Origin: Spirogloea muscicola
Lineage: Eukaryota; Streptophyta; Zygnematophyceae; Spirogloeales; Spirogloeaceae
Assembly: GCA_009602725.1 (NCBI GenBank)
Contig: WELB01000051.1
Span: 590,869 to 620,009, forward strand
Direction of reading: 5' to 3'
Length of the DNA stretch: 29,141 nucleotides
The first letter of the stretch is position 1, and each line of letters starts with the position of its first letter. Positions 11,043 through 29,141 of this stretch are shown in pieces. The notes under the pieces are model-generated. The model ran no database searches, had not been told where the DNA came from, and saw only the letters and a list, made by a program, of their open reading frames with translations. Both the position numbers and the translations under genes were made by a program.

Positions 11043-11967
11043 NNNNNNNNNNNNNNNNNNNNNNNNNNNNNNNNNNNNNNNNNNNNNNNNNNNNNNNNNN
11101 NNNNNNNNNNNNNNNNNNNNNNNNNNNNNNNNNNNNNNNNNNNNNNNNNNNNNNNNNNNNNNNNNNNNNNNNNNNNNNNNNNNNNNNNNNNNNNNNNNNN
11201 NNNNNNNNNNNNNNNNNNNNNNNNNNNNNNNNNNNNNNNNNNNNNNNNNNNNNNNNNNNNNNNNNNNNNNNNNNNNNNNNNNNNNNNNNNNNNNNNNNNN
11301 NNNNNNNNNNNNNNNNNNNNNNNNNNNNNNNNNNNNNNNNNNNNNNNNNNNNNNNNNNNNNNNNNNNNNNNNNNNNNNNNNNNNNNNNNNNNNNNNNNNN
11401 NNNNNNNNNNNNNNNNNNNNNNNNNNNNNNNNNNNNNNNNNNNNNNNNNNNNNNNNNNNNNNNNNNNNNNNNNNNNNNNNNNNNNNNNNNNNNNNNNNNN
11501 NNNNNNNNNNNNNNNNNNNNNNNNNNNNNNNNNNNNNNNNNNNNNNNNNNNNNNNNNNNNNNNNNNNNNNNNNNNNNNNNNNNNNNNNNNNNNNNNNNNN
11601 NNNNNNNNNNNNNNNNNNNNNNNNNNNNNNNNNNNNNNNNNNNNNNNNNNNNNNNNNNNNNNNNNNNNNNNNNNNNNNNNNNNNNNNNNNNNNNNNNNNN
11701 NNNNNNNNNNNNNNNNNNNNNNNNNNNNNNNNNNNNNNNNNNNNNNNNNNNNNNNNNNNNNNNNNNNNNNNNNNNNNNNNNNNNNNNNNNNNNNNNNNNN
11801 NNNNNNNNNNNNNNNNNNNNNNNNNNNNNNNNNNNNNNNNNNNNNNNNNNNNNNNNNNNNNNNNNNNNNNNNNNNNNNNNNNNNNNNNNNNNNNNNNNNN
11901 NNNNNNNNNNNNNNNNNNNNNNNNNNNNNNNNNNNNNNNNNNNNNNNNNNNNNNNNNNNNNNNNNNN
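11043..11967. other. Assembly gap (925 N)
   Basis: All positions are N. Both flanks are GCC/CCG triplet-rich (GCCGCCGCCGCC on each side), so a GC-rich repeat probably stopped the assembly. The gap interrupts the MED26-like gene; frames read across it are meaningless. Confidence 1.
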
Positions 11968-12444: not shown

Positions 12445-15400
12445 CTGCTCTCCTCTGCACGCTTCCATGCTCACGATGCCGCCGCCGCTCGCGTGCTCGC
12501 AGTGTCCTTCCTCGCGGTCGCCTTCAGCCAGACCCCCCTGTGGCTCCCGGCGGCGCCCACAGTGGCAGCAGCGGCGGCAGGCGATGCAGACCGCCTCCTG
12601 CGCGTCGCACCGTCGCGGCCGGCTCCCGCCGCTGCTGTGGCAGCGAGGCGCATCGTGCGCAAGGTCGGGACTGCTGCCTGCTGGCACCTTTGCTTGAGAA
12701 GAGCCATAAGACTTTCAATCCAGAGACACAGGTACATATTTAAACTCGGGATTTCATTAACGCCGGTCTTTTGTTCCCATGACCGTCCTCATGGTCCACA
12801 GGCCCCGCGCGCCGGCGCTGAGGCGCCGCCAACGAGCGCCAGCCCGTTGCCGGACGGCGCCGATTTCAGTGGTGACAAGCTGCCGACGCTCTCAGGTTAT
12901 GTCCCGGTGGCGGCGGGGTCGGCCTCGCGCCTCTTCTACACGTTCTACGAGGCGTCGGACCCTGGCGGGCGGCCGATCCGCGACACGCCGCTCATCCTCT
13001 GGCTCAACGGGGGCCCTGGGTGCTCCTCCCTCATCGGCGCGTTCTACGAGCTCGGCCCCTGGCGCGTCGCCGGCATCGACGGCCGCCTCGTCCCCAATCC
13101 CGGCGCCTGGAACCGCAGGTCAGGCTGCCACAATTGCGTCTGCCCCAAGAAATCAGGAAATAGAGCTTGTGCGTTGCTTGTACCATCTGAGTGGTCAAAT
13201 ATGGCAAACATACCATAGTTTTGCTTGTTCCTGTGTTGAGTCTACAAGCTCCGAGCGCTGGTGTGCGGTTCCTTGTACACAACAAAGTTAGGCTCGACTA
13301 CTGGAAGTTAGGCTCTTAGTGGTGATCTTAAGACGTTAGCATCTGATAGGAAACCTGACGTTCGGATTTGAACTCCAAGTGTACGAAATTCACAGAAGCC
13401 TCGGCAGCAAGCTGTTGAGGCGTCCATGACCAACACCTTGGTGTGACGCTCGCCAGGCTGCCTGCTGGCATCGGGGCAGGTATGGCGTGCTTTTCGTCGA
13501 CAACCCCATAGGCACAGGGTTCAGCATCGTGGCACCCGGCGAGACTGCGCCGACGGACCAGGCCAGAGTCGCAGAGCACCTGCTCCATGGGCTGCTGGCC
13601 TTCTTCGACGAGAACCCCAGCTTTGCTGGCCGCCCGCTTGTTGTCGCCGGCGAGAGCTACGGCGGCAAGTACGTCCCGTCGCTCGCTCATCGCCTGCTGG
13701 AGGAGGTGCGGCGCGGCGCCAGCGGCGGCGGCAGCGCCAAGGAGTCGCGCCTGCCCTTCCGTCTCCTCGGCATGGCCGTCGGCAATGGCTTCACCGACCC
13801 CCGATCGCAGGTTGCGCAGCTTAGTGGCGTCTGCATAGAGCAGGCTAATCTGGACATCCTTCTCATTGTAATCAAATGCTAATTAAGTGAGACACACACA
13901 GAAGCCATTGAGTGCATTATGTGGGCTGTCGCACCTTGCTTGGGCCTCCTGTCGGCACACCCGCTGACGCCGTCTGCTCTCGACCCGGCAGGTCCAGGTC
14001 CATGGCGAGGTCGCATACCACTTTGGCCTGCTAGATGGCCGCCAGGCTGAGCACGTCAATCACGAGGCGGAGGCCGTCGTTGATCTCGTGGACAGGCGCG
14101 CCCTCTGCATCTTGCCACGCTGCCAGCAAGATTCTGCATTCTCTTGATAACAGCTGCTTGGGTGGCCGCCAATAGCGGCAGTAACTGTGGTGCCGTCAAG
14201 TGCAGCAATGCGTGCCCTTGTAACATACATCATTCAACATCATTGCTAACCATCTGTCTCAATGAGCTTGGGTTGCCCCGCCCTGTGTCTGCGAGGTGGC
14301 AGGGAGGAGTGGGTGGCGGCGCACCACCGGCGCACGGCGCTGTGCGAGTGGATCGAGGAGCACGGCGGCATCCCCACGCTGCTTGACGTGCGGCGCTATG
14401 CCAAGTACCACGCCACAGAGGTGCGCCTGCTCCAGAGATCATTTCTTGCAAGATGCACAAAGCTGGTCACTCTGGGCCATGCTAACTTCATTGGGAAGTC
14501 GGATTGTAGCAAATGCCAAGCACTCAGGGCTTACTAAGCTATGTCTGTGTTTGCTGGTGTCTCACTTGCAGGACGGTGTTGAGTACCTCGCACTGTTCCT
14601 GAATCGGCCAGAAGTGAAGGCGGCCCTTGGCGCCGATGCCGACGTCGACTGGGTCAGCTGCCGGAAAAGCATCCGCCTGCACATGGCAGAGGTGAGGCAC
14701 GAGTTGTTGGGCTTGGTGGCTTCTCCCTTGTCGTTGCCCTTGCTTTTACAAACTTTAGTTTCTAGGCCGTAGTGTGTGGGGCTTATGGTACACATTTAGC
14801 TTGTAATTCTCAAGACTGCTGCTGCTGGGGAGTATGACCGGCAAGTCGGGCTGCCCTGTGCCCTAGCACCACGAAGCTGAAGTGAAAGGCTGCAATGTTG
14901 AGTCTTCCCTTTTTCAGGATAGAGACCTGGGTCTTGCTGCGCTGCTTGCTGGCTGGTGGTCCTGGCAGCTTATTGGCGTGCCATCAGCCTCTGTGCCTCT
15001 GGCACAAAGAAGCAATGCGCACTGTTACTCTATTGGCAACGTACTGTTTCTAGTATGTGACAGCCACATTGCACAGACTCACCATGTTGCCAAGGACTGA
15101 GTCTGAGCGTCACTTGTTGCAGGACACCATGAAGAGTTGCAAGTGGAAGGTGGAGGCATGCGTGCGCGCAGGCCTCCCAATGCTGCTGTATCAGGGCCAG
15201 TACGATGCCAAGGATGGCGTTGTTAGCTCCCTGGCCTGGATGGTGGACCTGGACTGGGACCGGAATGATGCCTTCTGGGGCGCAGAGCGCCGGCTCTGGC
15301 GCGTCGATGGTCGCCTCGCGGGATATTGGCGCCAGCTCGACAACCTCACGCACGTTGAGGTCACGGGTGCTGGACACCAGGTGACATGCAGCAGCTTACA

Positions 15401-17571: not shown

Positions 17572-18561
17572 TCAGTGCTGGGCTTGGGGACCCAAGCGGC
17601 AACCAGCAGCCAGTACGTTGGCAGTGCGGTAGTCAAGCTCTGTGCCTTCAATTTTGAAGGCGCCATGGTGGGGTCTACGGTGTTGTCGGCCAAGAGGTGC
17701 TGCTTTGCGGTACGTCTGGCCCAGCACGCCATGCACAGCTGCCGACACTTGCAGCTGGTCCACGTTCACATTCAGCTGCACACACCGAGGCTGGAGTGTC
17801 AGCTCAATTAAGAATCTCATCATGACGTCGGCTAGCATTCTGCCAGGTCAGACAAGTAAAGCGGCCGGCAGATCACGAGGTTTGGGGCTCGGTAGGTGCT
17901 CACATAGAATTGCTGGGGCCCACCCTTCCAGTACACCACACGCTTCACCTCCACCTCCAGGTCCAACAAACCCATCTGCACGAGTCTTACAGATCGCCTG
18001 GACCTCCTGAGCTCCAGCTCTCCAATAGTCATGTTTCTTACCGTTGAAGCAAGGAGGACGCCGTTGACGTCAATCTCGCCCAGCATCACGTCTCTGACTT
18101 TGCCGGGTGTCCGAATAGCTTTATCTGCAGATATGAGAACTTGTACTTTCCCCAGGATGATGCCTATCTCTGTGATATACTGCAAGCACGTAAATTGGAA
18201 GAGTGCATAAAAAGAGCTGCTTGTGAGCAAGCAGGCATGTCATTAGCACCATGTGTTTCATGAGCGTCAGAAGAAGTAACAAGGGCATCAGCTCATTGCA
18301 AAGTTGAAGGACGCAAGAAACTGAGAGCAATGTCACATATATAGTGCCCCGAAATTCAATGCACTCAATGGTTCGGTCAAGCTCTTACTGTCGTGTGCTT
18401 GCGGTAGCCAGCCACAAGCTTCATGTTGATGTTAACCGCCTTGTCAGCAACGAGGCAGTAGCTCTTCCCGGCTTTGCCTAGAAAATCAAACCATTCGCCG
18501 TGCTTGCCAATAAGGTGGGGATCACCTCTCACGCCCGGCTGCGTATAGTTTGTGCTTGGGC
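17572..18561 (-). other. Root cap-type C-terminal domain exons of the giant gene
   Basis: Exons 18561-18389, 18179-17904 and 17775-17572 join in phase and encode a domain matching plant Root cap/LEA-related proteins. Matches, with the family pattern in parentheses: GVRGDPHLIGKHGEWFDFLG (family: DPRFVGGDGVMFYFHG), KSYCLVADKAVNINMKLVAG (family: FCLVSDSNLHINAHFIG), EIGIILGKVQVLISADKA, then VSAAVHGVLGQTYR (nearly identical to the family AVHGVLGQTYRP) and IEGTELDYRTANVLAAGCRL (family: FASSSLFATDCAV). The fold is von Willebrand D-like. The stop at 17572 gives a natural C-terminus shortly after the last conserved block. This part has no frame breaks. Confidence 0.82.
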
Positions 18562-21500
18562 CTGCAACATGTGGATGAAATTCCATCAGCATGATTGATT
18601 TGCTGAGATGGCCTGCGAGGCTGCTGTAAGACAGTTGGCCATCGGCTGCCATGATCTCCAGAATCGAGAGCAGTGAGCTTACGATGTAGGTGTACGTGGT
18701 GGTGCCTCTTCAGATGGCCATGGTGAGGGCAGGGCTCTGGGGGAGGCTGAGCCTGGTTGCAGGTACACTTTGGAGAAGGAGAGCCAGAGGCCGAAGGCGG
18801 ACTAGATTTCCCGGAATCGGTGGGCGGGGGAGCTAGAGACGGAGGAGGGATGGCTTCTTGGTGCAGAGGAGGGCGTAGGAAGGAAGGTGGACTTTGAGAG
18901 GAGGGAGGAGAAGACTCTGGTGGAGGATGTGAGAAGGAAGAGGGAGAGGGTCCCTGAGTGGGGGGAGGAGAGGTCTCATGGTGAGAAGGGGGGAGACCGG
19001 AGGAGGGGCCTGGTGGTGCAGAGGAGGGGGGGATTCCGGAGGTTGATTCTGGGAGGATGAAGGAGGGGGCTCTAGGTGAGGAGGATGGAAGGAGGGAGGT
19101 AGACTCTTAGGCGGTTGAGCAACATGAGCTGGCGTTGCTACTTGAGGAGGAGAGACTGGAGGGAGGTGGTGTGGCATGGGAGTTGGGGATCTGGAGTAAA
19201 ATGAGGGAGTTGCTCGCGGCCATGGCGGCGACGGATATGCCGCAGACGGCGAAGGCAGAGGAGTGGATGGAGTAGATGGAGGTGGATAGGTCGACAAAAG
19301 AGGGGGATGGGTCTGCGGAACTGGCGATGGCATTGGCAGTGGAGGTGGAGAAAGCAGTGGAGGGGGCCTTGGAGATGAAGGTTGAGGTGGGAGCGGCGAT
19401 AAGGATGGGGATGGAGCTGGTGACAAGGTTGAGCGCGGAGGAGGTGAATATGGAGGAGCAGAGAGGGGAGGAGGTGATGGGACGATGGGACTCTGCACCG
19501 GCTGTGGAGCTGGAGGAGGGTGGGTGTGGCTTGCTCCTGAGGAAGCATTGCCAGCGCCTAATGACGATGGTGCAGCGGCTGCTGGTGGAGGTTGGAGAAC
19601 CGGCCCTGGGGGAGGGACCTGACTGGGAGAGGCAGGACTGGGGGCAGGGCCAGTCACAGCTGGAGGGGAGGGGCCCAAAGGAGGTGGCGGTAAGTAATCC
19701 CTCAGTGGTGAAGGTATAGGTGGAGGGATGTATGGAGGAGAGGGTGTCACTGGAATGTTTGGTGGAGGCAAAGGTGGGGGCGGTGACGATGATGTGCTTG
19801 GTGGCTTGGCAAAGCTGTGCGGCGGCGGCGGCGGCAACGGTGGCGGTAGTAACGGCGGGGCCTGTGTGGAGGATGGGGTGCCGGTCGGAGGTGTGACTGT
19901 TGACTGTGGCGGTGGCGGTGAGGCCATGGAGGGCGGAGGAAGAAGAGGATGTGGAGGCCTTGACAGCACCGGTGGTGCGGTCCTTGAGGAGGGAGGGGGT
20001 GGCATCTGCAGAGGGGGAGGAGCTGGACTTGGCCCCAACAATGGAGGCGTGGAAGTAGGTGGGGTTGGCGATGCTGGAGAGCGGGCAGGTGGTGAAGGAG
20101 GTGGACCTTCGAGAAGTGGTGGAGGTGGAGGGTGATTGCGGCCTGAGCCAGAGTGGTCATGCTGATAGTACGGCGGAGGCGGTAGAGAGGGGAAAGATGG
20201 GCTTGGCTGCAAGCTCGGTGAGCGTGGAGGAGGGTGGTGGGGAATCGGAGTGAAGCTGGGGGCAGGAGCTGGTGCATGGCCGCTGGGAGGAGGGGGGTGC
20301 GGGCTGAGGTAGAGGATTGGAGAAGCAGGGGATGGAGGTTGTGACACGGGCGGGCTTGTGAGCTGCATCCCAGGGGGCGGAGGAATTGGTGGTGATGACA
20401 TGATGACAGGCCGAGGAGGGAATTGGACTGGAGCAACTGGAGCTACAGATAGATCAGGCTGAGGAGGGGGAGGCGAGAGAACGACTGGAGGCGGTGCAGA
20501 AGGAGGTGGAGCACCATGACTTGGAGATGGAGGTGAGAGTGAAGTAGGGGGACGTGGAAGAGGGGGTGGACTAGGGGGGCTACCAAGAGGACCCTGAGTG
20601 AGAGGAGAGAATGGTGGAGGTGTCAGGGCTGGAGCTATCACTGGATATGGTGGAGAGGGAGATGGAGGTGAGGGTACCAAGCTATGAGCACTGGAAGGTG
20701 GAGAGCGCCACACAGGAGTTGGCAAAGGAGTTGGTGAAGAAGCTGGCGATGGCTGAGGTGGAGGGCCAGCAGGAACCACGTGATGGTGAGGGGAGGAGGG
20801 TAGAGAAGGGGACTCAGGAGGAGGTGGCGCGAACTGAGGTCGGGGGCTAGAAGCACTGGCATTGGAGGAAGAAGAGGGTGGCTGTGATGTTGGTGGTGGA
20901 GAAGGTAGACCAGGACTTGAAGGGAGTGGGGATGGAGACGGAAGTGACAGTACGGGGCTGGGAGGCCTTAGATTTGCAGGAGAGGGGGATGCCAGAGGGG
21001 GTGGTGGAGGGGAGGGGTTTGCAGGAGCAGGTGGTTGAGGTTGAGGGGGGCTAGTAAAAGGACTGTGAGGGGAAGAGGAGGGTGGATATGATGAAGAAGG
21101 AGGTGGAGGCATCAGAGGTTGTGGTGGCGGAGGTGGAGGCGAGACTGAGACGCTGTGGGGACTATAAGGAGGAAGGAGGTAGAGTGTTGACGGCAGAGGT
21201 GGTGGAGGAGAGAAGGACGCAGGAGGGAGTTGCGGGGGTGGAGGTTGAGGTAGGGGTCCTGTAGGAGAGCTGTCAGGAGAGGGCGAAGGTGGTGGAAATG
21301 GTGGAGGAGGCAGACCAGGGGATGGGGAGGTCTGCGGAGATGGTGGAGGAGGAAGTGGAGTGGATGGAGATAGGGGTAGAGATGGTGGTGAGGGAGGTGG
21401 TGGAGGAGGAGGTGGAGGACTCAGAGGAGGTGGAGATAGAGGAGAAGGTGAGAGACAGTGAGGACTTGAAGCAGCTGGAGGTGGGGATGCTGGAGGAGGA

Positions 21501-24500
21501 GTTGGAAGTGGAGCCTGAGGTGGGGGCTCAAACGAGGACAAAGGTGATGGAGGTGGCAAAGGACGACTCATAGGTGGTGGAGAGGGGGGCGCAGGAAGAG
21601 GAGGTGTCGGAGGTATACGCAGTTGAGGTGGGGAAGAGGTCAAAGGTGATGGAGGTGGCAAAGGAACACTTGGAGGTAGTGGAGAGGGGGACACAGGAAG
21701 TGATGGTGGAGGGGGAGGTGGTGGAGGTGGGGGGCCTGCCTGAGGACTTTGAAGGGGAGGGGAGGAGAATGGAGGTAAGGGCACTGTTTGAGGTGGGGGT
21801 GGGGGTTTGTCAGGATTTGGAGGTGGTGGAGGACTTGAAGGTGGTGGTGAAGGGGATGGTGGAGGAGGTGTTGGAGGCGGAGGTGGGGAGAACGGTGCAG
21901 GTAATGGAGGTAGCTGCGGAGGACTACCAGGTGGAGGAGAGGGGGACGCAGGAACAGGTGAAGGAGGAGGAGGTGGGAGGCCAGCTGGAGGACTGTGACG
22001 AAGAGGGGAGGCGAAGGAGGTGATAGAGGTAGGGTTGGCGGGTTTTGAGGACTCGGAGGTGGTGGAGGTGGTGGAGGAAGAGGTTGAGGGGGGGGCTTAG
22101 CTGGAGATCTGGGAGGGACAGGAGAGGAGGGCGGAGGTGGTGGAGGTTGCAAAGGAGGACTTGAAGGTGGTGAGGAGGGGGACGCTGGAGGAGGTGGTGG
22201 AGTAGGAGGTGGGGAGGAGGGCGGAGGTGATGGAAGCGGCTGAGGAGGACTTGGAGGTGGTGGCGTGGGGGACGCTGGAGGGGCTGGTGGAGGGGAAGGT
22301 GGTTGAGGTGGGGGGCCAGCCGGAGGACTGTGAGGGGGAGGGGAGGGAATTGGAGGTGATGGCACCGACTTAGGTGGGTGTGGGGAATCGTGAGAGCTTG
22401 GAGGTGGTGGAGTTGGAGGTTGAGCTGGGGGCTCGGTAGGAGGACTAGGAGGAGGAGGACTGGAGGGCTGAGGTGATGGAGGTGGCAATGGAGGAGGTGG
22501 GGAGGAGGGCGGAGGTGATGTAGGTGTCTGAGGAGGAGTTGGAGGTGGTGGAGAGGGGTACGCAGGAGGGGTTCGTGGAGGAGGTGACTGAGGTGGGTGT
22601 GGGGCATTGTGAGAGCTTGGAGGTGGTGGAGGTGGAGGTTGAGGTGGGGGCTCAGCCGGAGGGGGAGGACTGAAGGGTGAAGGTAATGGAGGTGCCAACG
22701 GAGGAGGAGGTGGGGAGGAGGGCGGAGGTAATAGAGGTGGCTGCGGAGGACTTGGAGGTGGTGGAGAGGGGGACGCTGGGGGTGGTGATGGAGGAGGAGG
22801 AGGTTGGGTTGGGGGCCCAGCTGGAGGACTGTGAGGGGGAGGGGGAGAGACTGGAGGTGATGGCACTGACTGAGGTGGCTGTGGTCGTTCGTGAGAGCTA
22901 GGAGGTGTTGGGGGCGGAGGTTGAGGTGGGTGCTTAGCTGGTGGGTGAGGGCTGAACATTGGAGGTGGTGGAGGTGGTGGAGGTGGCGATGGAGGAGGAG
23001 GTGGGGAGGAGGCCCGAGGTGATGGAGGTGGCTGAGGGGGACTTGGAGGTGGTGTTGAGGGGGACGCAGGCCGGGCTGGTGGAGGGGAAGGGGGTTGAGG
23101 CGGGGGGCCAGCCGAAGGACTGTGAGGAGGAGGGGGAGAGACTGGAGGTGATGGCACTGACTGAGGTGGATGTGGTGGTTTGGAAGAGCTAGGAGGTGGT
23201 GGAGGTGGAGGTTGAGCTGGGGGCTTGGCAGGAGGACTGGGAGGAGGAGGACTGGAGGGCTGAGGTGGTGGAGGTGGCATTGGAGGAGGTGGGGAGGAGG
23301 GCAGAGGTGATGGAGGAGGATTTGGAGGTGGTGGAGGCGGTGGAGAGGGGTAAGCAGGAGGATTTGGTGGAGGAGGAGGTGGTTGAGGTGGGGGGCCAGC
23401 TGGATGACTGTGAGGGGGAGAGGAGGACAATGGAGGTGACGGCACTGATTGAGGTGGGTGTGGGGGTTCGCGAGAGCTTGGAGGTGGTGGAGGTGGAGGT
23501 TGAAGTGGGGGCTTAGCTGGAGGGGGAGGGCTGAACATTGGAGGTGGTGGAGGTGGTGGAGGTGGCAATGGAGGACGAGGTGGGGAGGAGGGCGGAGGTG
23601 ATGGAGGTGGCTGAGGTGGACTTGGAGTTGGTGGTGAGGGGGACGACGCTGGAGGGGGTGGTGGAGGAAGAGGTTGTTGAGGTGGGGGGCCAGCCGGAGG
23701 ACTGTGAGGGGGAGGAGCGGAGAGCGGAGGAGATGGGTGGAGGAGGACTTGGAGGTGGTGGAGTGTGCGGAGGGGGACTTGGAGGTGGTAGAGAGGGGGA
23801 CGGAGGAGGAGATGATGGAGGATGATGAGGAGTTTGATGAGGTGGGGCGGGGGGCGAGGGTGATGGACTTCGCGGAGAAGGGCTTGGAGGCGGTGGAGTG
23901 GGGTATACAGGAGGAGGCGGTGGTGAAGTTGGTGGTGGGGGTGGGAAGGAGGGCGGAGGTGATGGAGGTGGCGGAGGAGGACTGAAGGGTGGTGGAGAGG
24001 GGGACGCAGGAGGAGGTGATGGAGGAGGTGGTGATGGAGGTGGCGGCGGAGGACGGAGAGGTGGTGGAAGGGGGTACGCAGGAGGAGATGGTGGAGGTGG
24101 AGGTGGTGGAGATGGGAAGGAGGGTGGAGGTGATGGAGGTGGAGGAGGACTAGGAGGTGGTGGGGTTGGCGGAGGAGGACTTGAAGGTGGTAGAGAAGTG
24201 GACGGAGGAGGAGATAGTGGAGGATGATGATGTGGAGGTGGGGAGTGGGGCGGAGGTGATGGAGGTGGCGGAGGAGGACTGACGGGTGGTGGAGAGGGCG
24301 ACGCAGGAGGAGATGGTGGAGGCGGAGGTGATTGAGATGGGAAGGGTGGTGGAGGTGATGGAGGTGGAGGAGGATTTGGAGGTGGTGGACTTGGCGGAGA
24401 AGGGCTTGGAGGCGGTGGAGAGGGAGACGGAGGAGGAGATAGTGGAGGATGATGATGTTGAGGTGAGGAGTGGGGCGGAGGTGATGGAGGTGGCGGAGGA

Positions 24501-27500
24501 GGACTGAAGGGTGGTGGAGGGGGGGACGCAGGAGGAGATGGTGAAGGAGGAGGTGGTGGAGATGGGAAGGGTGGTGGAGGTGATGGAGGTGGAGGAGGAT
24601 TTGGAGGTGGTGGACTTGGCGGAGAAGGGCTTGGAGGCGGTGGAGGGGGAGACGGAGGAGGAGATAGTGGAGGATGATGATGTTGAGGTGAGGAGTGGGG
24701 CGGAGGTGATGGAGGTGGCGGAGGAGGACTGAAGGGTGGTGGAGGGGGGGACGCAGGAGGAGATGGTGAAGGAGGAGGTGGAGGAGATGGGAAGGGTGGT
24801 GGAGGTGATGGAGGTGGAGGAGGATTTGGAGGTGGTGGACTTGGCGGAGAAGGGCTTGGAGGCGGTGGAGAGGGAGACGGAGGAGGAGATAGTGGAGGAT
24901 GATGATGTTGAGGTGAGGAGTGGGGCGGAGGCGATGGAGGTGGCGGAGGAGGACTGAGGGGTGGTGGAGGGGGAGCCGCGGGAGGAGATGGTGGAGGAGG
25001 AGGTGGTGGAGATGGGAAGGGTGGTGGAGGTGATGGAGGTGGAGGAGGACTTGGAGGTGGGGAGTGGGGCGGAGGTGATGGAGGTGGCGGAGGAGGACTG
25101 AAGGGTGGTGGAGAGGGGGACTCAGGAGGAGATGGTGGAGGCGGAGGTGGTGGAGATGGGAAGGGTGGTGGAGGTGATAGAGGTGGAGGAGGACTTGGAA
25201 GTGGGGGAGTTGGTAGAGGAGGACTGGGAGGTGGTGAAGAGGGGGCCGGAGGAGGAGATGGTGGAGGATGATATTTTTGAGGTGGGGAGTGGGGCGGAGG
25301 TGATAGAGGTGGCGGAGGAGGACTGAAAGGTGGTGGAGAGGGGGACTTAGGAGGAGGCAATGGAGGTGGTGGTGGTGGTGGAGGGGGAGGGGGAGGGGAA
25401 GAGGGCGGAGGTGATGGAGCTGGCGGAGGAGGGCTGAATGGTGGTGCAGAGGGGGACTCAGGAGGAGGTGATGGAGGAGGTGGTGGTGGTGGAGGGGGAG
25501 GGGGAGGGGAAGAGGGTGGAGGCGGGGGATACGATGGAGGTGGCTTAGATGGTGGAGGACTTGGAGGAGGGAGATTACCAGGGCTGCTTGGAGGATGAGG
25601 AGGTGGGTTGTCGCAGCTCGGTGGTGTATAGCAACACACGCACTTGGCCTGCTCAGTTGGACAACTTGCTGCAATACCAAACAATGGTTGAAGTCAGAAT
25701 TCATGGTACACTTACTACAATGAGATGCTGAGTCAGTCTGAAGCCCATGCAGCAGACTCTGTCTGAAGTGCTGGACTTACATAGAGTTGTTATCGATCCT
25801 GAGCCCTGGATTTGTGGCGCCTTCAGCTCTGTCGGGCAGAAGCTGCAGTTGCCATCACAGAGGACTTCCTCGGCTGTGGAGGCTTGCGACGCTGTCGACA
25901 CAAATTGAGTCCTCACTATCAAAAAGTTGGCATTGTTGTCCACCTCCATCGCCATCCCAGCCTGTGCAACGCACATGCCCGATTAGTATGGTCGCTTGAC
26001 AACTACTTTACTTCAGTAACTTCGTCTAGTTGGAGACTACACTCTGATCCATCTGCAAGCAGCTGCAGACTCGTCTGCATGTTGGCTGCAGAAATGCTCC
26101 ACTCACTGGGGCTGTGTTCATTTGGAACGAAGAATCCACCCCAAGATGCTTGCACTCCCGACGTTTCACCAACTGATGCCTCACTGCTGATAGCTCCACC
26201 AGATATCTGCGACAGAGGAGGTAACAAACTTGCTGCTGGCTATAAGTTCTACAAAAAGCAAACAACCCATTTTACCGTGTGTGTATCTGTACAGCTACTT
26301 CTGCAGAGTCAGTGCGCCGCTGCGCTTGTAGTTGGGACGGCCAACTTACCCCTGCACTGTTGGTGATTGAATGCAGATGTATAAAATTTTGCAATTGCAC
26401 CACCACCTTGAGCAGCCAAATGTACTGCACCTCCCTCTCCGCGTGCCATATTATCTGAGAAGGAGCAATCGTAGCAATCCAGTCTACTTCCTCCGTTCTG
26501 GACAACAAGGCACATGTCTAAGTATTGGAGAAGAAGCAGTACATCATGTGAGGACTTCCTTTTCAACTTCAGGGTGTTGTGGGACGCGTGAAACATGCTT
26601 AGAGAGGATAACCCCCTTTTCCTTGATGCATCATACAAGAGGGTGACGGCCTTTCGATAGCTTCTTACCATCTCAAGGTCGGGCGAGGCATCATCAGCAA
26701 AGATTCCTCCTCCATAGCAGGCAACATTGTGCACAAAAGATACATTCTGAAAGGTCGAGCAACTGTCCAAGCCTGTGCCGCCTGTTGATGTTTGAGCATT
26801 AGCTGAACCAAGATAGATCGCTCCTCCAAAAGCATAACCACCAGCTGGGGGCTGGCAGTAGGAACATCAGGTACTCATTAGCAATCATGGCGATACAGTG
26901 GCTTGTGGGACCGCAGACGGACTATTTTATCAAAGAAAGCATTGCCGGAGTCGATGAGATCACTGCACAGCAGCAACATTGTCTTCGAAGCTCCAAGGGC
27001 AAACTCAAGTGTATTCAGAGGAAATCGTCCAAAGAAAAGCAAGCAAGACACCCGTCCATGCCAAAGCATTTGGCTCGGAAATCATAAATGTGAGCAAGCA
27101 TGGAGGACTCGCATAATTACATTGCCAAGATTGTTAGCAAATGAAACGTCTTTAAAGTATGCCATGGATCCAGCACCAATGTAGACCGCCCCTCCTGCCA
27201 CTATAGCAGTATTGTGGATAAAGTTGACTGCTATGGCTGAGAACTTCGTCTTTATGACAGATGGTAGCGATGCAGCTACATATACAGCTCCACCTTCCTG
27301 TCAAGTATATGCTCATCATAAGGTTGCGCAGGAACACAGACACTGCAAAAATGTAGACAAGACAATTTGGATGCAGTAATGCGAGTAGAAAGTCATAGCT
27401 CAATTGGGGTCAAGAGACGAGAGAAGCTTACTGTTGTTGCTGGATAGTCTGTGGCCACGCCATTGATAAGGGTAAGACCCTGAAGAGACAGCTTGCGGCT

Positions 27501-28751
27501 GCTAGAACATGAAATATCTGTGATATGCAGACACGGGTAGTTAGAGGAGGTTGACCATCTTTGACGGCATGCAATTAGCTGGAGAAGGTCAATACATGTA
27601 AGACCTTTGTGTAATCAAGCACATAAGGTGCACACGCGTGTCGAAGATGTGTAAAGATCATGGAAACAGCCCAACCTGGAACTTGTGGTCGCCGTCAATC
27701 TTGCAAGGACCACTGTCACAAGCTCCGACGATTGTAATGCTTTGTTGAACCTCTGGCAGTGGAGCAGTGAGCAGTATGTCCTTGTCCAGGTAGACACTGG
27801 CTGATCGATCAGATGCAATCTTGTCCTGTAGACAAGCCTCGTCACTGCACCAAACGAAGGCTGTTCCAGCCTCGACTTCTGCAAGGACTAAGGCATCGAT
27901 GACTTAGTCAAGCTGGCCTGATTACCGGTGCTTAATAACATATCAGTCTCTTGTGCCAAGGATCTCAATCAAATATAGGCATACGCTCCTATAGAAGTAG
28001 CCGTTCTTAGAGAAAAAGTTAGAGGCGCTGAGCTTGATATACCTGATTAGATGCACATTGATCAGATATATATGCACATGCGCAACTCGCGTGCGGTTGC
28101 ATGGACCGAATATCTATATGCTAGCTTCTCACCTTTGCCAGTCACGCGGAAGTCAACAGTCACGTTCCTAGAGAGAATGCTGGAATACAGGTCTACTCCT
28201 TGGTGCTTAGCAAGTTGCCTGTGAGAGCCTGCACTCCTTGGTACATGATGATAACGTTGAAGGACACCTGCATCGCACAGACTAAACACGTTGAATTGGA
28301 GAATTGACTATCTCCTCAGCACCTACATGTTTCAACAGGAAACTGAAGGCCCAACCGAGCAGGTTCGATTGTTCTTCATGCTGGTCCTTGAAGTGCAAGG
28401 ACAATATGACAGCTGCAAGTCTGTCTTGAGTAGCTTGCAAAAGGAGCTAACATTGTAAGCTTGGGTAGCAGCACGCAGTGAATACTGACTCCGACGTGGT
28501 GGCTAGCTTCGACTTGCTCAGAATATCGGCAAAGAGCAAAGCTCGCTTGCAGCACTCACTGCATATCCTGCTTTAAGCGGTCACTAGCACTACGTGATCA
28601 GGAAAAAGCACATACCGGAAGCTGCATGCAGCGGGAGCGCACTGGCGCCCAACGCAGCGCCAAAGGTGGCGAGAGCGTAGAGCGCCGCGTAAGGCAGCTT
28701 GCAGCTGCGCGCAGCGGCCGCGCGCCGGTGCGCACTAGGCGCGCCTCGCAT
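17572..28751 (-). CDS. Giant wall-type protein: PMP-like helix, Pro-rich stalk, Root cap domain
   Basis: Minus-strand exons in coding order: 28751-28616 (ATG plus signal peptide), 28412-28327, 28267-28133, 27878-27676, 27578-27432, 27297-27121, an unresolved small piece near 26880-27060, 26844-26669, 26497-26350, 26206-26012, 25961-25781, 25668-18683, 18561-18389, 18179-17904 and 17775-17572 (TGA). Nearly all junctions are GT..AG and agree in phase. The predicted product of about 3,000 residues is secreted: a signal peptide, Chlamydia-PMP-like repeats, a Ser/Pro-rich stalk and a C-terminal Root cap-type domain. The likely role is structural, in the wall or extracellular matrix; this is inferred from composition. 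As sequenced, the reading frame is broken near 28200, 26370, 23737, 22010 and 18990, each by a one-base shift. I call it a CDS because frames and splice phases between the breaks are well kept, but it may be a pseudogene or a poorly assembled repeat locus. It could also be two genes, although splice phases favour one. Confidence 0.62.
21980..23700 (-). repeat. About 291-bp diverged repeats within the Pro-rich exon
   Basis: A marker block (plus strand CCAGC, GGAGGACTGTGAG; protein HSPPAGPPPQPP preceded by SVPSPP) recurs at 22817, 23108, 23396 and 23690, with spacings of 291, 288 and 294 bases. More distant copies lie at 22316 and 21981. Each unit also carries a PHPPQ(S)VPSPP segment and a PPPMFSP segment. 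Copies differ by many substitutions but spacings stay divisible by three. Confidence 0.75.
24060..25330 (-). repeat. 225-bp near-identical tandem repeats (75 residues)
   Basis: Marker HHH-encoding blocks (plus strand GATGATGATG) occur at about 24226, 24451, 24676 and 24900, a period of 225 bases. Each unit encodes about 75 residues beginning near HHHPPLSPPPSPSPPPP and including PPNPPPPPSPPPPFPSPP and FSPPPPPPSPPPHSSPQ. The central copies differ at only a few positions; a partial copy and a diverged copy with KYHPPP follow towards 25330. Such near-identity indicates recent unequal exchange, and collapse or expansion in the assembly is possible. Confidence 0.85.
25781..28751 (-). other. Signal peptide and PMP-like beta-helix exons of the giant gene
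   Basis: The first exon (28751-28616) encodes MRGAPSAHRRAAAARSCKLP followed by the hydrophobic YAALYALATFGAALGASALP, a good signal peptide. Exon 4 has APLPEVQQSITIVGACDSGP and CKIDGD, typical of the entry to parallel beta-helix PMP-like proteins. Exon 5 has SRKLSLQGLTLINGVATD. Later exons carry the Chlamydia polymorphic membrane protein pattern of GGA(I/V) and FxNN: EGGAVYVAAS, AGGAVYIGAGSMAYFKDVSF, AFGGAIYLGSA, FQNVSFVHNVACYGGGIFAD, CSFSDNMARGEGGAVHLAAQ, ISGGAISS. Eukaryotic algae use this repeat in extracellular proteins. The exon between 27121 and 26844 is unresolved, and two exons (28267-28133, 26497-26350) seem to need a one-base shift. Confidence 0.72.

Positions 28752-29141
<390 letters not shown>

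Follow-up and report, generated by a model that had tools for sequence, protein, structure and literature searches.

Introduction

In pherophorins, pherophorin domains flank a rod, and the sexual agglutinins of Chlamydomonas have long hydroxyproline-rich stalks with terminal heads. Long chimeric extensins, which exceed 2,000 amino acids, have localised SPPP repeats and carry non-extensin domains, were found in Chlamydomonas, Volvox and Ostreococcus and in no other surveyed species, Klebsormidium and land plants included; the portions of that survey available to us mention no combination of a helix with a Root_cap domain (PMC4769139). A signal peptide was present in 76% of the proteins surveyed (PMC4769139, PMC5073881). 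The mastigoneme proteins MST3 and MST1 of Chlamydomonas likewise combine polyproline-II rods with globular domains, which in MST3 (8,572 residues) are a PKD-like transmembrane domain and C-type lectins and in MST1 are Ig-like domains; glycosylated polyproline-II helices can also be free filaments, and one segment of 429 residues has a theoretical length of 133 nm and a measured length of 146 nm (PMC11015965).

Root cap domains occur in two-module proteins. The poplar chimeric extensin PtEXT30 combines SP(n) repeats with PF06830, the sole domain listed for this protein of 467 amino acids, and its repeats are given as 5/0/0/0, taken here as SP3/SP4/SP5/YXY (PMC5073881). In the zygnematophyte Ancylonema nordenskioeldii, an ice-binding protein of about 55 kDa has a binding domain, DUF3494, followed by a C-terminal DPH/root cap domain; the excerpted text mentions no giant stalk (PMC10796529). 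The same authors describe the DPH domain as a beta-sandwich plus a root cap domain, call it streptophyte-specific and suggest that it promotes oligomer formation (PMC10796529). A root cap protein is also listed in a Penium secretome study (PMC6027541), and a review names the make-up and functions of the wall proteins of green algae among the questions still open (PMC10762512).

Here we analysed a giant gene of Spirogloea muscicola. A preliminary description had proposed that a signal peptide, PMP-like beta-helix repeats, a long Ser/Pro-rich stalk and a Root cap domain are joined in one protein of possibly undescribed architecture. Taken as a whole, that observation was partly confirmed, and its interpretation was partly supported.

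Results

The window, by which we mean the whole 29,141-nucleotide stretch of DNA that was analysed, is part of contig C51 in a genome of 153 Mb and 471 contigs, which was searched for related loci. Homeologs of the giant gene were found on contigs C84 and C9, and both are collinear with the window copy (C51) over the whole gene. At the sequence level, this comparison shows one gene in three homeologous copies, two of which (C84 and C9) are openly readable. Alignment of the three copies placed the gene on the minus strand, from 28751 to 17572, in 13 exons (Table 1). The introns are GT-AG in 12 of 12 cases in each copy, and all 13 exons of C84 and C9 are phase-compatible and can be joined without an internal stop into spliced proteins of 2,453 amino acids (C84) and 2,828 amino acids (C9). 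The splice-phase compatibility that had been described as mostly present in the window is therefore complete in the homeologs. The exon 8 donor at 26107 is common to the three copies and reads GTGAGT in the window and GTAAGT in both homeologs. The start at 28751 also held, with an in-frame stop 10 codons upstream of the ATG in all three copies; hydropathy, examined in the C9 copy, is raised over approximately residues 17-48. The order of modules is a signal-peptide-like start, a PMP-type helix, a Ser/Pro stalk and a C-terminal DPH/Root-cap domain. Between C84 and C9, dN/dS was below 1 throughout (helix, 0.39; stalk, 0.58; C-terminal part, 0.16).

Table 1. Exons of the giant gene as located in the window copy
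Feature	Positions	Strand	Basis
Exon 1: start codon and signal-peptide-like N terminus	28616..28751	-	upstream in-frame stop in 3/3 copies; hydropathy of C9
Exon 2	28133..28267	-	phase-compatible; aligned in C84 and C9
Exon 3: helix region begins	27676..27878	-	three-copy alignment
Exon 4: helix; window copy 1 base short relative to both homeologs	27432..27517	-	alignment
Exon 5: helix repeats (GGAV, FxxN)	27121..27297	-	motifs, alignment
Exon 6: helix repeats (GGAI, GGGI, FVHN)	26669..26851	-	motifs, alignment
Exon 7: helix repeats; window copy 1 base long relative to both homeologs	26350..26497	-	Pfam Chlam_PMP, alignment
Exon 8: helix repeat; window copy 1 base long relative to both homeologs	26107..26206	-	alignment
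Exon 9: helix region ends, Cys-containing linker	25781..25961	-	alignment
Exon 10: Ser/Pro-rich stalk; CVCC-type cluster at start, CTC..C at end	18683..25668	-	frame scan, alignment
Exon 11: GDPH motif, DPH (vWD-like) domain begins	18389..18561	-	motif, profile comparison
Exon 12: DPH domain	17904..18179	-	alignment, matches to C-terminal part
Exon 13: Root_cap domain and stop codon	17572..17775	-	Pfam Root_cap, 27.9 bits

Elsewhere in the window, a serine carboxypeptidase (Peptidase_S10) gene with several exons lies on the plus strand at 12876-15400, tail to tail with the giant gene, and alpha/beta hydrolase gene fragments over the Pfam cut-off lie on the plus strand at 385-1886. An assembly gap of 925 N at 11043-11967 falls between neighbouring genes. 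The window ends in a perfect (TC)n repeat (29023-29141), which lies upstream of the giant gene, approximately 270 bases from its start codon.

The joined helix exons matched Pfam Chlam_PMP (PF02415) with 33.8 bits in C9 and 32.1 bits in C84 (cut-off 20.6), and the C9 helix, the one scanned with this model, matched NCBIfam POMP_repeat (TIGR01376) with 26.5 bits (cut-off 15). These scores bear out the PMP-like beta-helix repeats proposed earlier. A single helix ORF of the window reached 19.6 bits with Chlam_PMP, just under its cut-off of 20.6. Each copy contains six FxxN and seven or eight GG motifs. All 27 matches to the helix in its own genome (E up to 0.01) fell in the three homeologous copies, and among sequences of solved structures no match was found at E up to 1. 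In a search of viral contigs restricted to two peptide patterns, no helix relative was seen among 16 stretches, and a first DNA pattern search for the helix gave no match. Searching the genome with PF02415 returned zero matches, probably because single exons hold too few repeats; this search missed the giant gene too, and its zero carries no weight. Chlamydial Pmps have a C-terminal autotransporter barrel, for which no match was seen in the two end regions scanned, so these appear to be PMP-type repeats and not a Pmp protein.

The stalk is a single exon that encodes 1,787 residues in C84 and 2,163 residues in C9, and the window tract is worth approximately 2,330 codons. About half of the stalk is proline. 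It contains 58 (C84) or 87 (C9) SPPP repeats, concentrated in its first half, and no YXY. The first half of the tract is also tandemly repeated, with periods such as 99, 126, 225 and 291 bp. The proline content falls from about 0.6 to about one third near the end, where many other residues are found. Cysteines are confined to the two stalk ends in both readable copies, where clusters that might cross-link the stalk had been noted earlier. Constraint on the stalk is weak, with a dN/dS of 0.58 between C84 and C9 and of 0.68-0.71 when the window copy is one of the pair. With 0.31 nm for each residue, a value derived from the 429 residues and 133 nm of the published filament (PMC11015965), the extended length would be about 554 nm in C84, 671 nm in C9 and 722 nm for the window tract. 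The fall in proline makes a rigid rod over the full length doubtful, and the far part may bend.

For the C-terminal part, Pfam Root_cap (PF06830) scored 27.9 bits on window 17572-17847, just over the cut-off of 27, but the spliced C-terminal parts scored 24.0 bits (C9) and 25.5 bits (C84), below it. For the Root cap assignment, the window score and a profile match around the GDPH motif speak in favour, and the scores of the spliced homeologs against. The GDPH motif is present in exon 11 of all three copies, and profile comparison of the GDPH part with two other DPH proteins of the genome gave 97.8% over 66 columns. From GDPH to the protein end there are 205 residues in both homeologs, shorter than the approximately 280 stated for DPH domains, and the C terminus is hydrophilic in C9. 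Residues 11-41 of the C-terminal part matched Fc-gamma-binding protein (E 3.5e-4 and 3.5e-3), in chains that hold vWD domains, and ITI_HC_C was matched below the cut-off (E 0.005 and 0.023). These similarities agree with a vWD-like C-terminal part and do not establish it.

Relatives of this domain are numerous in the genome. Root_cap was matched in 53 places (E up to 1), 45 of them over the cut-off and several in three-contig sets, and the C-terminal part gave 49 matches, 40 of which lie outside the three copies. We read five DPH relatives, three on C279 and one each on C164 and C83, all apparent stand-alone proteins; a sixth stretch (L057) yielded no reading with the motif used. The stand-alone proteins resemble the giant protein in the GDPH domain, which by the profile comparison of two suggests shared ancestry. 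Each has a signal-peptide-like start of its own and, ahead of the domain, a short linker of the PPPP type. The domain is apparently encoded by one exon, and the proteins extend over 311-337 amino acids from the likely start (three counted), without the helix or the long stalk. From these five of many relatives, we infer that the long stalk and the helix may be additions to a plain DPH protein. A candidate second giant at C279:36839, where a DPH match lies in an open frame of 6,238 amino acids, was rejected as an N-gap artefact; there is an ordinary-looking DPH protein there. Three DPH/Root_cap genes are clustered beside an N gap of >9 kb on C279:27001-47000 (L051/L052).

Among 30 Root_cap loci read in their stored orientation, one (L022, C84:287549-290698) has an in-frame Pro-rich run just before GDPR, and three others have Pro-rich windows that are not tied to the domain. 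The apparent homeolog of L022 is another Root_cap match at C51:647932-648081, approximately 28 kb beyond the window. The Pro-rich run that precedes GDPR in L022 continues into an N gap, so more proline-rich DPH genes may hide in assembly gaps.

The window copy itself is interrupted. Relative to both homeologs, it has six frame-breaking indels in approximately 9 kb of coding sequence, one base each in exons 4, 7 and 8 and three indels in the stalk exon. Its Pro-rich tract changes frame near 23.7-23.9 kb, again near 22.0 kb and a third time near 19.0 kb, and neither C84 nor C9 has such a switch; the first of these indels is uncertain in position because of the repeats (23869-23898 by alignment, near 23730 by frame scan). 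Stops occur in every frame of the window tract (17, 21 and 10). Introns within the Pro tract were considered as the cause of the three switches and rejected, as both homeologs read straight through. Thus, the Ser/Pro tract that had been described as one 7-kb exon is indeed a single exon in the readable homeologs, but the window tract lacks a single open frame.

Discussion

Whether the modules form one protein, and whether the window copy still encodes it, can be considered together. The five stand-alone DPH genes, with their own signal-peptide-like starts and short linkers, would be consistent with two or three separate head-to-tail genes at this locus, which would encode the helix, the proline-rich tract and the Root cap domain. 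In contrast, the exon 9/10 and exon 10/11 junctions are of the split-codon type (phase 1) and GT-AG in both homeologs, and no stop separates the modules in C84 or C9. Separate genes for the ends are hard to reconcile with 12 introns that are phase-compatible in two diverged copies, and we regard them as highly improbable. It is scarcely credible that the proline tract is open by chance and represents a non-coding minisatellite, even though its first half is tandemly repeated: between C84 and C9, 23 of 23 stalk gaps are multiples of three, as compared to 7 of 35 in introns 1-9 (a test that depends on how MAFFT aligned this repetitive sequence), 200 rounds of dinucleotide shuffling of the C9 stalk exon never gave a stop-free frame (the fewest stops in the best frame being six), the stalk dN/dS is 0.58, and the less repetitive second half is also open in both homeologs. 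The read-through of two homeologs and the multiple-of-three gaps thus bear out the order of helix, stalk and Root cap domain in one protein. As to the window copy, its frame breaks reflect either assembly error or recent decay. Loss of one copy is common after triplication, and C51 might have turned into a pseudogene recently, with C84 and C9 still functional. Besides the six indels, the private changes in the stalk, which are more numerous in the window (98 synonymous and 172 nonsynonymous) than in C9 (62 and 94), and the higher stalk dN/dS in pairs with the window copy point in this direction. However, no nonsense codon was seen in the helix or stalk among window codons aligned to C9 or C84, and the one stop counted in the window C-terminal part was taken as the one that ends the gene. 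In the helix, the changes specific to the window (18 synonymous, 13 nonsynonymous) are no worse than those specific to C9 (11 and 20), and errors of assembly are plausible where an assembly with gaps runs through a tract so rich in repeats. In the carboxypeptidase neighbour, three Pfam-matched stretches compared with C84 only (approximately 1 kb, too little to decide) had gaps only at 13817-13819; these positions close one stretch and, as judged by eye, fall past a splice donor. We consider decay of the window copy quite possible, at somewhat under even odds.

At the sequence level, the gene encodes a chimeric hydroxyproline-rich-type protein in which Cys collars flank an SP(n)-rich stalk, with the helix ahead of the first collar and the GDPH/Root_cap domain behind the second. 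Our preferred reading, to which we give a probability of about 0.6, is that this product works in the cell wall or in mucilage, as a long tether or spacer. The protein would be secreted, and its stalk prolines would be hydroxylated and glycosylated to give an extended polyproline-II rod of approximately 0.55-0.72 micrometre. The PMP-type repeats may form a right-handed beta-helix that takes hold of a ligand, either polysaccharide or protein, and the DPH domain may adhere or oligomerise at the far end. Since the copies have stalks hundreds of residues apart in length and the first half is built of tandem repeats, the stalk probably serves for reach or spacing rather than as a precise ruler. The same modules could instead belong to a stalked adhesin or ligand-binding surface protein that functions in freezing, desiccation or cell-cell recognition and not in wall structure, with the helix as its binding face and the DPH domain as its oligomeriser. 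DUF3494 is a beta-solenoid, and the sexual agglutinins of Chlamydomonas also bear terminal heads on long stalks. The Ancylonema ice-binding protein, for which such a role is likewise presumed, has its binding domain and DPH domain in the same order as here (PMC10796529). However, the helix of the giant protein resembles PMP repeats by profile, the scanned end regions contain no match to DUF3494, and such an adhesin would be without a known ligand; we find this role less likely than not.

Compared with the systems described so far, the spliced proteins of C84 and C9 have the length (>2,000 amino acids), the localised SPPP (at least two) and the non-HRGP domains that belong to the definition of long chimeric extensins (PMC4769139, PMC5073881). 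On this basis, we place the putative product of the giant gene among extensin-like proteins of the long chimeric type, as a new combination of domains and not as a new kind of protein. Profile scans of the end regions gave no match to PKD-like, C-type lectin or Ig-like domains, nor to pherophorin domains. The combination of helix, stalk and Root cap domain did not appear among the open-licence papers listed by searches on fewer than three modules at a time, and the absence of this trio from print is weakly supported. The suggestion of an undescribed architecture may stand for the trio, but its two-module pairings have precedents in the poplar extensin with a Root cap domain and the glacier-alga ice-binding domain with DPH. 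A whole-genome triplication has been reported for Spirogloea muscicola (PMC9065682), and the triplicated loci, together with the streptophyte-specific DPH domain, fit this zygnematophyte.

Two of its three copies are readable and evolve under purifying selection, and the gene presents a concrete, testable candidate for a giant matrix protein in a zygnematophyte. It also offers a way into the part that the DPH/Root_cap domain, itself poorly understood, may play outside roots.
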